Assembly (NCBI GenBank): GCA_031082125.1
Contig: JAVHLM010000013.1
Span: 1-64,000 of the forward strand
Direction: 5' to 3'
From: Candidatus Eremiobacterota bacterium
GTDB taxonomy: Bacteria > Vulcanimicrobiota > CADAWZ01 > Ess09-12
Length of the DNA: 64,000 bases
Below are positions 21,263 through 26,073 of the stretch, piece by piece (position 1 is the first letter of the stretch; each line of letters opens with the position of its first letter). Below the pieces are notes generated by a model that was not told the DNA's origin, ran no database searches, and saw nothing but the letters and a program-made list of their open reading frames with translations. Both the position numbers and the translations under genes were made by a program.

Positions 21263-23011
21263 ATGCCCTACGATGAAGATGGAAACCTCATAGATGAACA
21301 CGGAAACCTCATCCCCGGCTCTGGAGAGCCCCGGGAAGACCAGGAAACCCCGGAGGAGGAGGATTTTGTAAAGGAATTCCAAGAAGGCGACAACTTCAAA
21401 GAGGAAGCAAAGGAAGAGCAGTCAGAGGCAGACCTTGACGATGAGCTGAAGGCGGATCTGAAAAAGTCCCTCGAGGAAGCTCCGCAAGGCCCTGAAAAAA
21501 AAGTAAAGATCGATACGCTCAAGACGAAGAGCCCTCTCCCCATAATTGGCGCTGCCGTCCTGGTGATCCTTGTCCTTGTCGCCGTGGGCTATATTCTTTA
21601 TCTCCAGCAGAAGGGGGCCGATCCGAAGAAGCTTACCATCGTGTTCACCCTCTCGCCGCCGGGAACAGAAGTGACGGTCGATGAGCAGAAAGTGGTGCCT
21701 GTCACAAGGAAAGACGGCCAGCTCGGGATCACGGGGCTTGAAGCAGGCAAGCACACCCTTGCCTTCAGGAATAAAGGCCATAAGCCCCTCACCATGAAAG
21801 ACGTGGTGGTGTCGGAAAAGACGGCCACCCTTCTGGGGAGCGTGAAGCTGGAAAAGTACCCTTCAGGCTCTATCACCGTGAAGATTGAGCCTGCCGACGT
21901 AAAGCTTTATATTGACGGTGCCGAAGTGAAGGTCGTGAAGCTTGACGACGGCAGCCTCCAGGTGACAGGAGTTCCTGAGGGAAAGCACTCTCTCAGGGTC
22001 GAGAAAAAGGACTTGGAGAGCTGGAAAAAGGATGATATCCAGATGGCCAAGGATGACTGCCTTGAGCTTGATCCCTTGACGCTCAAGCAGAGGATATGGA
22101 AGCCCATGGAGATAGATGTGTCTCCCGTTGCTGTCAGCGTGTTTGTTGACAGGAAGAAGGTCGGCACCACGGTGAATGCAAAGAATATCGTCATCACTGA
22201 CTCCCTCGATCCCGGGAAATACCGGCTGGATATCTTTGCCGATGGCTACGAGAGCTGGAGCATGAAGGAAGTGGAGGTCTATCCCGACCTTTCCACCACC
22301 GTGGGCCCCGTGAGATTGAGCCTCCTCAAGAGCGGCAAGATCATCCTTGACTCCGAGGAGAAGCCAGATGTAGAGCTGGACGGGAAGAAGGTTGAGCCGG
22401 TCCTCCGCTCCGACGGGCGTTACGAGGTGGACAAGGTCAAGCCGGGGACCCACTCCCTCAAGGTGAGCCGCGAAGGCTTTCATGAGCTTATATGGGACAA
22501 GATTGCCATGCCCAAGGACCGGCCTCTTGAGCTGGCCAATATTCCATGGAAACAGATGAAGGGAAAGACAGTCATCCTCTCCACTGATCCCGGCGAGGTG
22601 AAGATTTACCTGGAAAACGAGCTTAAAGGCACCACGCCTCCAATCCCGGGGACAAGCTTTGTGATAACCGATCTGAAGGCTGAGCGGTATACATTGCGTG
22701 CTGAAAAGGAAGGCTATAGCACATGGAAAGACGAATCAGTGATCGTCGAGGATGACAAGCCAACGATCATGCCCCTCATTGCGTTGACCAAGCCTTCCTC
22801 CTTAAAGATTACCGGCACCCCTGAAGAAGTGGAAGCCAGGATTGAAGGGCGGGAAGGAACTGTCACCGCTCCGGGAACATTGAGCGATCTTGCTCCCGGC
22901 ACTTACAAGATTACCCTGAAAAAGAAAGGTTTCAAGGACAAGGTGATGATGGCGACTGTGGCGGCAGGCAAAGAGACGGAGATCACCTATAAGCTGGAAA
23001 AGAAGAAATAG
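21263..23011 (+). CDS. PEGA-repeat membrane protein
   Basis: The protein has 582 residues. Residues 1-90 are acidic and cytoplasmic, with DEDGNLIDEHGNLIPG near the start. One transmembrane helix lies at about 92-114. Six PEGA-type repeats of about 70 residues follow, each with the pattern of a small beta unit ending in PGxHxLxxxxxG. PEGA modules often bind surface polymers or connect to S-layer-like structures. AAGGAGG lies before the ATG. It is the last gene before a gene-poor stretch of about 600 bp. Confidence 0.85.
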   Translation: MPYDEDGNLIDEHGNLIPGSGEPREDQETPEEEDFVKEFQEGDNFKEEAKEEQSEADLDDELKADLKKSLEEAPQGPEKKVKIDTLKTKSPLPIIGAAVLVILVLVAVGYILYLQQKGADPKKLTIVFTLSPPGTEVTVDEQKVVPVTRKDGQLGITGLEAGKHTLAFRNKGHKPLTMKDVVVSEKTATLLGSVKLEKYPSGSITVKIEPADVKLYIDGAEVKVVKLDDGSLQVTGVPEGKHSLRVEKKDLESWKKDDIQMAKDDCLELDPLTLKQRIWKPMEIDVSPVAVSVFVDRKKVGTTVNAKNIVITDSLDPGKYRLDIFADGYESWSMKEVEVYPDLSTTVGPVRLSLLKSGKIILDSEEKPDVELDGKKVEPVLRSDGRYEVDKVKPGTHSLKVSREGFHELIWDKIAMPKDRPLELANIPWKQMKGKTVILSTDPGEVKIYLENELKGTTPPIPGTSFVITDLKAERYTLRAEKEGYSTWKDESVIVEDDKPTIMPLIALTKPSSLKITGTPEEVEARIEGREGTVTAPGTLSDLAPGTYKITLKKKGFKDKVMMATVAAGKETEITYKLEKKK

Positions 23012-23088
23012 GGGAAAAATACCCGGAAGAGAGAAAATCCCATGAAATAAGGCTTCTGACCCCCAGAAAAAGTCTGCATGCAAAACCC

Positions 23089-23118
23089 TTGACTTTTTGA
23101 ACAAATGTATCCTATAAT
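23089..23118 (+). promoter_or_regulatory. Consensus promoter of candidate small RNA
   Basis: TTGACT (23089-23094) and TATAAT (23113-23118) are 18 bp apart. Predicted start near 23125, exactly where the outer helix of the candidate RNA begins. No ribosome site or ORF follows within 100 bp. Confidence 0.75.
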
Positions 23119-23124
23119 GATTGT

Positions 23125-23225
23125 GTAAATAAGAGTAGATTTACCTTGCCATGGAAAGGTACAATCTCCCTCCTATTTACTCCACTGATCGTCCCCGAAG
23201 AACCCTCCATTCTTCGGGGATTTTC
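23125..23225 (+). ncRNA. Candidate structured small RNA
   Basis: About 100 nt lie between a consensus promoter and a hairpin terminator. Outer helix: GTAAATA (23125-23131) with TATTTAC (23174-23180). Inner hairpin: GATTTACCTT (23138-23147) with AAGGTA (23156-23161), a bulged C, then AATC (23163-23166), closed by the 8-nt loop GCCATGGA. A terminator hairpin follows at 23193-23219. The nested architecture and the absence of an ORF suggest a functional RNA. It does not match 6S, SRP or a riboswitch that I recognise. Confidence 0.5.
23193..23225 (+). terminator. Rho-independent terminator of the candidate small RNA
   Basis: Perfect 10-bp arms CCCCGAAGAA (23193-23202) and TTCTTCGGGG (23210-23219), a 7-nt loop, then ATTTTC. 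Confidence 0.7.
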
Positions 23226-23260
23226 ACATCGGGGGGAAATATATCCCCGCAGCCATCAGG

Positions 23261-23299
23261 AAGGCCCGTCACCATGAGGTAAAGTGGCCTTTTGTTTTT
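23261..23299 (+). terminator. Second terminator-like hairpin
   Basis: AAGGCC (23261-23266) pairs with GGCCTT (23286-23291) across a 19-nt loop, followed by TTGTTTTTC. The stem is short but the T tract is good. It could back up the terminator at 23193. Confidence 0.45.
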
Positions 23300-23567
23300 C
23301 CTCCCAGATGGTCCGAAACAATCCAAATTGACCCACTTTTTCAGAAATCTTGGCAAGATTTGGATACACCCCTACAGGGCAGAAATCTATATTACATGCT
23401 ATTCTGGAAAAAGCCAGGGGAGAATGTCCCCATCTTGACCCATGACTGGAATTTGTCCCGAAACTATTGACAAGTTCTGCTCTGCGGGAGGAGCTAAGGA
23501 ATAGTGGCTCATTGACCTCCTCTTCACCTTATCTTCATACTCCATTCACTGTCTTTTCATACTACTT

Positions 23568-23576
23568 TGTTATAAT
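23568..23576 (+). promoter_or_regulatory. Extended -10 promoter of the small Cys peptide gene
   Basis: TGTTATAAT at 23568-23576 is an extended -10 element. No good -35 box is visible 16-18 bp upstream. The ribosome site of the peptide gene starts 19 bp downstream. Confidence 0.5.
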
Positions 23577-23609
23577 ATGCTCAGAAGATGAAGAAAGGAG
23601 GCGATCACC

Positions 23610-23714
23610 ATGATTACAAAAGTGTTTGCGGGAAAAGGTAACGATATCACGCAATGTCCATCAATGTGCGTAATAGAACTTGCTTTGGTTACAATGATGG
23701 CAGTTGCACGTTAA
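23610..23714 (+). CDS. 34-residue Cys-containing peptide
   Basis: An AAGGAGG (23595-23601) stands 8 bp before ATG 23610, and an extended -10 promoter lies 34 bp upstream. The peptide begins MITKVFAGKGNDITQC and has a CPSMC segment. Its C-terminal half is hydrophobic. A second frame (+2) across 23654-23722 reads NRTCFGYNDGSCTLTA before a stop, which looks more peptide-like than the end of frame 0. The true product could therefore arise by frameshift, or the gene may carry an old indel. It could be a leader peptide, toxin, signal or modified-peptide precursor. No maturation enzyme adjoins it. Function unknown. Confidence 0.5.
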   Translation: MITKVFAGKGNDITQCPSMCVIELALVTMMAVAR

Positions 23715-23928
23715 CTGCATAAATGATCCTGATATGTCGATTGTACTGCGCCCCATTTGTCCAGACAGCTCAGTATCTGCAATGCGGATGGCTGAGCAGC
23801 TGGCTTCTCGGGTTTTTGACACTACATTTCATAAAATCACTCAGGGCTTCTTTGGCCCAGAGAGGCTGCAAAAGATTCATGCAATAAGCCGGGGAATAAT
23901 TCCACAGCAGGAGAGCCCGGGAGCAGCT
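23715..23928. other. Intergenic stretch without supported gene
   Basis: About 210 bp. An open frame with TTG 23704 or ATG 23734 ends at 23937, but it has no ribosome site and its composition is unlike the neighbours. An imperfect hairpin CTCAGGGC/GCCCAGAG lies near 23842-23865. Confidence 0.4.
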
Positions 23929-23953
23929 TCAAAATAAGCGAAGATCTCGCTTC
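23929..23953 (-). terminator. Terminator of the receiver-kinase gene
   Basis: AAGCGA (23936-23941) and TCGCTT (23947-23952) with a 5-nt loop. On the minus strand the stem is followed by ATTTTG just after the kinase stop codon at 23955. Confidence 0.55.
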
Positions 23954-23954
23954 T

Positions 23955-25385
23955 TCATGCTTTAAACTCCACGATGAACTTTGCCCCCTTCTGCCGCTCA
24001 AGCCTTATGGTTCCACCGAGCTGCTCTGCCAGCATGCCGACAAGCTGCAGCCCGAAACCTTCTGGTGCTGCAATATCGATTGTTTCTGAAACACCTATGC
24101 CGTTGTCCTCAATGATGAGTGTCCCCTCATTGTCCTTTTTCGAGAGGGAAACAGTGATTATTCCCTTGTCTCTGCCGGGAAAGGAATGTTTCATTGCGTT
24201 TGTCAGGAGCTCATTGATAATCATGCCGAGGGGAGACAGGATCTCTGAGTCGAGGACGAGGTCGTCAATGTGCTTTTCAATTGTCAAGAATCTCCTGGCG
24301 GGAAATATGCCTACAATTTCATCAATCAAGGCGGAGAGGTATTCCCTGGTGGATATCTTTCTGAAATCAGATGACCGGTAAAGCTTGTCATAGAGAACCA
24401 TCATGCTCTGGACACGGCTTCTCGCATCCTCAAGGGAGGAAACGGCTGATTGATCCTTGAGTGCCTGCGACTGCAGAGAGAGGAGGCTCATGATAACGTT
24501 CATGTTGTTCTTGACGCGGTGATGAACCTCTCGCAGGAGCAGTTCTTTTTCGGCAAGAAGTGATTTGATCTTCTCTTCCGCCTGCCTGCGCTCCGTGATG
24601 TTTTCAAAAGTCGCTACAAAATATCCCTTCTCATTGCTGTGAACAGAAACAGACAGGCACATGGCCAGGGGCTTGAAATCGATCTCGAACTTCTCGGAAC
24701 TGCCCTTTGATGCGACTCTGCCGTAGATCTCAAACAACTCCGGGTTCAGTTCTCTGATCCCGGGGATCACTTCTGTGACGCGCTTACCTATCACATCCTT
24801 CAAGCCGGTCAATTGATCAAATGCCTGGTTGACATCGAGATACACAAAATCCACCGGGCGGTCATGGTCATCAAAAAGCATTCTGCAGTAAGCAAATCCA
24901 TCCAGCATGTTTTGAAAAAGAGAGTGGTAACGCACCTCGCTTTCCTGGCGTTTCCGGTAAGTCTCGATGAGTTCTTCATTCTTCTTCTCCAGTTGCATGT
25001 GAGCCTCAAAGAGCTCAAAGGCCATCTCTATCGAAGACTGGAGCACAAAGGCACCGTAATCCTTGAGCACATAGCCGTAGCGGGTGATGCCGTGGACTTT
25101 CTCCACTATCTCGCGCTCGGCATGGGAAGTGAGGAACACGATGGGAAGCCTTCGCACTTCCAGGATATGCTTTGCGGCCTCGGTGCCGTCGATCCCTTCG
25201 CCCAGATTGATGTCCATGATCACAAGGTCGATAGAGGGATCGGTTTTTATTGCCTCAAGAGCATCTTCACCGGAACAGACAGTTGTCACCTCATAATTGT
25301 TTCTTTCCAATATATCTGCTTCGACCCTGGCGGTGACTTTCTCATCTTCAACGATGAGTATCTTCTTGCAGCGATTATCCTTCAT
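23955..25385 (-). CDS. Receiver-PAS-HisKA_2 hybrid histidine kinase
   Basis: The protein has 476 residues. A response-regulator receiver (about 8-125) has the acidic pocket (VEDE) and the phosphoacceptor in VIMDINLG. A coiled linker leads to a PAS domain (about 150-270, ENITERRQAEEKI at its end). A HisKA_2/HWE-type kinase follows with the His in REVHHRVKNN, and an HATPase_c domain with INELLTNAMKHSF and EDNGIGV. No membrane segment is present, so it is cytosolic. The receiver-first order suggests that it is controlled by a partner kinase. Its output partner is not encoded nearby. Confidence 0.9.
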   Translation of the reverse strand: MKDNRCKKILIVEDEKVTARVEADILERNNYEVTTVCSGEDALEAIKTDPSIDLVIMDINLGEGIDGTEAAKHILEVRRLPIVFLTSHAEREIVEKVHGITRYGYVLKDYGAFVLQSSIEMAFELFEAHMQLEKKNEELIETYRKRQESEVRYHSLFQNMLDGFAYCRMLFDDHDRPVDFVYLDVNQAFDQLTGLKDVIGKRVTEVIPGIRELNPELFEIYGRVASKGSSEKFEIDFKPLAMCLSVSVHSNEKGYFVATFENITERRQAEEKIKSLLAEKELLLREVHHRVKNNMNVIMSLLSLQSQALKDQSAVSSLEDARSRVQSMMVLYDKLYRSSDFRKISTREYLSALIDEIVGIFPARRFLTIEKHIDDLVLDSEILSPLGMIINELLTNAMKHSFPGRDKGIITVSLSKKDNEGTLIIEDNGIGVSETIDIAAPEGFGLQLVGMLAEQLGGTIRLERQKGAKFIVEFKA

Positions 25386-25489
25386 CTTTGAGCCTCTCTT
25401 CCCTCAGGGGACATCTTCCGTTGTTGCCTCCCTCCCCTGAAGGGAAGGGGGAGCGGAGCGGGAATCCCAGGGATATTCAGCAGATATGG

Positions 25490-25918
25490 TCAGAATTCAC
25501 CGGTGCCGTCAACCTTGCTTTTTGTGCTGAAAAGCTTGATGAGGCCTTGGATTATAAGCACAAGACCTGCGATGCCGATGAGCAGGAAGAAGATGAAAAT
25601 GGCCAGACGGACCACGGGATTCAGTATTCCCAGGCAGAGATAGGGCAATATCCAGAATATGCCGGTGAAGGAGGTGGCCATGCAGATGATGCCGATGCTG
25701 ATGGAAAAGAAGCTGGCCTTCATTATCTCAAGGGATTTCTTCATCCTGAGCTCTTCATCGTGAAGCTTTTCTTTTTCTTCTTTTTCCCTCTTCAGATATT
25801 CCTCAGGAGAAATGCTGGATGGCCTCTCCGGCACATCGGCATTCTCATCACCCTGCATCTTGTCAAAATACCTTTTTGCCGCCAGATCGTCTTCATCATC
25901 AGGTTTTTTCATCGCCAT
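25490..25918 (-). CDS. Small membrane protein of unknown function
   Basis: The protein has 142 residues. The first 65 are charged, with a Lys/Glu-rich helix likely to be a coiled coil. Two hydrophobic helices follow (about 68-92 and 100-125) and a short tail ends the protein. Both termini are probably cytoplasmic. The start MAMKKP could also be the second Met. No family is recognised. It lies 104 bp upstream of the kinase on the same strand. Confidence 0.65.
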   Translation of the reverse strand: MAMKKPDDEDDLAAKRYFDKMQGDENADVPERPSSISPEEYLKREKEEKEKLHDEELRMKKSLEIMKASFFSISIGIICMATSFTGIFWILPYLCLGILNPVVRLAIFIFFLLIGIAGLVLIIQGLIKLFSTKSKVDGTGEF

Positions 25919-26026
25919 GGCACCTGCTCTGGAACTTGATGCTCTCCCGCTGAAGATTGATTATCATAACAGCGGAGCCATGAAGGAATATTCAATATAC
26001 TGGATGAATTCACCTGTTGGGAAACA

Positions 26027-26056
26027 TTGATAAGACCGGGGAAATTCTGCTATAAT
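26027..26056 (+). promoter_or_regulatory. Promoter of the pilin-like gene
   Basis: TTGATA (26027-26032) and TATAAT (26051-26056), 18-bp spacer. The ATG of the pilin-like gene is 17 bp beyond the -10 box, so the leader is short. Confidence 0.65.
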
Positions 26057-26073
26057 AGTATGGGGGTACTGTC

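Follow-up and report, generated by a model that had tools for sequence, protein, structure and literature searches.

The LhrC family of Listeria monocytogenes blocks the Shine-Dalgarno (SD) site through redundant C-rich motifs, which are found in a loop, in the linker and in the terminator loop, and C-rich motifs of the UCCC type are also used by RsaE, RNAIII, SprD and FsrA (PMC4132741). The locus described here lies in a stretch of 64,000 nucleotides from a Candidatus Eremiobacterota genome, called the window throughout. Its putative RNA resembles LhrC by the succession of a 5' stem-loop, a spacer and a terminator, as well as by redundant CU-rich motifs able to pair with an SD, one of which is located in the terminator loop (PMC4132741). 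However, it shows no sequence or Rfam match and occurs in a single copy, with two motifs versus three in LhrC and a terminator-loop copy that reads CCCUCC instead of UCCC. A C-rich motif complementary to the SD is likewise shared with RsaE and with the UCCC-motif sRNAs RNAIII, SprD and FsrA (PMC4132741), but here too an Rfam match is missing and the window RNA comes from another phylum. With 6S RNA (RF00013), it has in common a putatively independent transcription and a long closed hairpin, although it is too short and lacks the central bubble. A 6S identity was ruled out, since the genome carries its own 6S RNA at C15:162499-162683 (82.6 bits). The Rfam search returned no family over the gathering threshold and just chance matches at E 10, which also ruled out a known riboswitch, leader or sRNA.

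An earlier note on this DNA had described a TTGACT-N18-TATAAT promoter, a predicted start coinciding with the first base of a 7-bp closing helix, an inner hairpin and a 10-bp terminator stem 13 nt further on. All these elements were recovered where the note had placed them, except that the gap between the 5' hairpin and the terminator stem is 12 nt. Together with a second terminator-like hairpin and two CU-rich motifs, they give the following features.

23089 to 23118, + strand: sigma-70-type promoter TTGACT-N18-TATAAT, with 11 of 12 consensus bases and a pattern class that is enriched in its own genome
23125 to 23180, + strand: 5' hairpin of 56 nt (-17.4 kcal/mol, z -4.4, with 2 of 1000 shuffles equally stable)
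23166 to 23174, + strand: CU-rich segment CUCCCUCCU, candidate anti-SD pairing site 1 (placed by motif position and unpaired probabilities; putative function)
23191 to 23224, + strand: intrinsic-terminator-like hairpin 1, 10-12 bp, with the weak U-tract AUUUUC (z -4.6; d = -2.7)
23203 to 23208, + strand: CCCUCC in the loop of terminator 1, fully unpaired according to unpaired probabilities, candidate pairing site 2
23261 to 23299, + strand: intrinsic-terminator-like hairpin 2, AAGGCC...GGCCUU followed by UUUUGUUUUU (d = 0.0)

The promoter consists of a -35 box TTGACT (23089-23094) and a -10 box TATAAT (23113-23118) separated by a spacer of 18 nt. In the 7.43-Mb genome, the pattern TTGACN-N16-18-TATAAT occurs at 159 sites versus 3 for its reversed control, and the spacer-18 version alone at 17 sites versus 1; the false-match rate of this strict promoter class is roughly 2-6% in this genome. 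The downstream sequence was inspected for 97 distinct sites: an ORF with its ribosome site follows 75 of them, a tRNA gene follows 10, and neither is found after the remaining 12. The window promoter belongs to these last 12, with no ORF preceded by a ribosome site inside the 160 nt on its 3' side. Several of the other sites in this category resemble intragenic matches or starts of coding sequences that lack a canonical ribosome site, and one (L196) is near an L10 leader; the appearance of a stand-alone RNA gene, with stable hairpins and U-tracts, is limited to 2 of the 12, namely the window site and C3:111048 (L139). The genome count and the downstream survey together indicate that the promoter class is genuine here and serves untranslated genes too. 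Combining the strict promoter consensus with a filter for "no ORF, no tRNA" is, as this case shows, a way to single out the RNA genes of a genome of this type.

The survey also brought two side observations. Downstream of the L139 promoter (G000:C3:111048-111075, - strand) lies a second orphan RNA candidate, whose hairpin (AAGGTTTC...GAAACCTT) is nested and strong, and a T7 run occurs ~70 nt on; the candidate adjoins an excisionase-like ORF and has no match in Rfam. Besides, at L119, L122, L128, L132, L138, L146, L147 and others, the strict promoter stands at a constant distance of ~56-61 nt before a GTG-start ORF, as if these ORFs belonged to one gene family whose start region is conserved and which recurs across the genome.

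The predicted +1 at 23125, six bases after the -10 box, is the first base of the 7-bp closing helix GUAAAUA/UAUUUAC. This helix is followed by a 3-bp GAG/CUC helix and by an 11-bp inner stem bearing a C bulge (GAUUUACCUU against AAGGUA-C-AAUC), which is capped by the 8-nt loop GCCAUGGA. The 101 nt from 23125 to 23225 fold with a minimum free energy of -38.2 kcal/mol (z -6.0), a stability reached by none of 200 shuffles. This non-chance fold does not originate from the terminator only, since the z-scores of the hairpin alone and of the terminator alone are both low. A 175-nt form extending further in 3' gives a stable fold too (z -5.1).

The core of terminator hairpin 1 (23193-23219) is a 10-bp G+C-rich stem, CCCCGAAGAA/UUCUUCGGGG, with a 7-nt loop, while hairpin 2 (23261-23291) continues into a long U-tract up to 23299 that is better than the one of hairpin 1. 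Terminators were ranked with a d'Aubenton-type score d on both strands of the 64-kb window (128 kb of strand); d > 0 is found at just eight other sites on the two strands, and hairpin 1 ranks just below these. Two terminator-like hairpins with scores near the top of the window are found inside 100 nt, which gives a predicted RNA length of either ~100 or ~175 nt. The earlier note had proposed an independently transcribed structured RNA of about 100 nt belonging to no class that it could name. The promoter class, the fold, the terminators and the Rfam result are in line with that proposal, but the 3' end may be ~75 nt beyond the one it claimed. In our view, an independent transcript is probable, and with it a lineage-specific sRNA gene of a well-known general kind.

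CCUCC is the core of the anti-SD. The segment CUCCCUCCU, at the base of the 5' hairpin, contains CCCUCC as well as UCCC when the preceding base is included, and it is partly unpaired (half of it being paired). At least two copies of CCCUCC, a motif that was selected post hoc, are present in 0.9% of dinucleotide shuffles. Against the start regions of the window genes, the mean duplex energy is -9.2 kcal/mol for the CU-rich site versus -9.0 kcal/mol for its reversed control, and -8.15 versus -8.14 kcal/mol for the terminator loop. Since the reversed controls bind equally well on average, this duplex test does not separate the motif segments from their control. GGAGGG occurs in 3 of the 30 long window ORFs, as one SD form among several and not the dominant one. 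The anatomy of the RNA and its analogy with the C-rich sRNAs suggest, post hoc, a mechanism based on SD pairing, to which we give an even chance provided that the RNA is transcribed.

A covariance model (R1), which was built on the hairpin from one sequence and would miss strongly diverged relatives, was used together with BLAST to search up to 149 genomes of the phylum, and neither found a homologue of the RNA. Among these genomes, that of the window is the sole representative of its family and the nearest relatives are from another family. The best foreign matches, with E of 2 or higher, resemble chance hits; a weak R1 match in G010 (L225, E about 2) was rejected because no promoter or terminator hairpin exists in the 320 surrounding bases. 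R1 detected no paralogue in the own genome, where two partial BLAST matches (C1:186551 and C25:42077) were dismissed, as they share only TTGCCATGGA-type words. Collections of plasmids, phages and viral contigs gave no match to the RNA, and a contig search for close relatives anchored on aspS reached 56% identity at best, with no near relative. As no homologue was found, the stems are known from one sequence only and no sign of covariation or selection is available.

The RNA locus occupies the intergenic space 3' of a gene for a PEGA-domain protein. In a related family (f2), the order aspS - lipoprotein - PEGA is kept and a pilin-like gene comes immediately after PEGA; the two genes abut, leaving no room for the RNA-bearing stretch, which is thus absent there. 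In the window, these neighbours are separated by a block (23012-26073) that comprises, besides the RNA, a small gene of membrane type and a response-regulator/histidine-kinase gene. From gene order, the block would be either an insertion in the genome of the window or a loss in f2. On the + strand, the region 23570-23940 displays an extended -10 (TGTTATAAT), an AGGAGG and a 34-codon ORF starting at 23611, followed in a different frame by a 77-codon frame that has no match in Pfam. These two frames are possibly one frameshifted or decayed gene. A search of the window for tRNA and tmRNA genes found none.

The main rival to an independent sRNA gene is a 3' UTR: the hairpins would be tandem terminators of the aspS - lipoprotein - PEGA operon, the promoter would be fortuitous or weak, and any sRNA would be a by-product of that 3' UTR. 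The hairpins are on the strand of PEGA, 180-290 nt past its stop codon, no other plausible terminators than these two exist in 23005-23320, and the upstream gene run is conserved in the related family. However, a fortuitous promoter has to be weighed against a class with just roughly 2-6% of false matches, and the stable 5' hairpin belongs to no terminator and begins exactly at the predicted +1; we judge this explanation rather unlikely. A distinct alternative accepts a structured RNA but replaces SD pairing by an action on a protein, through sequestration or as a scaffold, or by a kissing-loop dimer formed through the loop palindrome CCAUGG. The compact, long-range closed fold and a self-complementary hexamer within an 8-nt loop speak for it, yet such a palindrome is expected by chance in ~5% of cases (a rough estimate), Rfam provides no match and 6S RNA is encoded by a separate gene (C15:162499-162683), so that this alternative is also improbable.

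Two further explanations invoke the neighbouring coding sequences. The earlier note had seen neither an ORF nor a ribosome site in the span; the ribosome site is indeed missing, but a 43-codon ORF (ATG 23151 to TAA 23280) crosses the region. Although this frame stays open, its ATG falls inside the hairpin loop, no ribosome site precedes it, it traverses terminator 1 and BLAST gave no homologous DNA, which reduces the prospect of a short protein gene to almost nothing. Alternatively, the next ORF on the + strand (34 codons, AGGAGG, ATG 23611) could have the RNA as its 5' leader or attenuator: the two share a strand, and hairpins that precede U runs could cause attenuation. This ORF is however ~490 nt away, past two terminators, and such a role is very unlikely because an extended -10 (TGTTATAAT) and a ribosome site of its own stand close upstream of it.

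The reading that we favour is a lineage-specific, independently transcribed sRNA, most likely acting in trans through SD pairing; taken as a whole it is held tentatively, at somewhat less than an even chance, with transcription, 3' end, targets and mechanism all being predicted. RNA polymerase carrying the housekeeping sigma factor would initiate at about 23125, and the transcript would form the stable 5' hairpin, whose closing helix at the first nucleotide may shield the 5' end. Transcription would stop at hairpin 1 (~100 nt) or read through to terminator 2 (~175 nt). The RNA would then pair in trans, via CUCCCUCCU and the CCCUCC of the terminator loop, with purine-rich SD regions and block translation of its targets. 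A bolder and doubtful extension is that it could be a family-specific global regulator of translation mimicking the anti-SD from two exposed sites, the UCCC strategy of Gram-positive bacteria having then arisen independently. For now, the RNA counts among the many orphan sRNA candidates; should it be transcribed, a deep and little-studied bacterial lineage would have a candidate regulatory RNA that falls outside Rfam.
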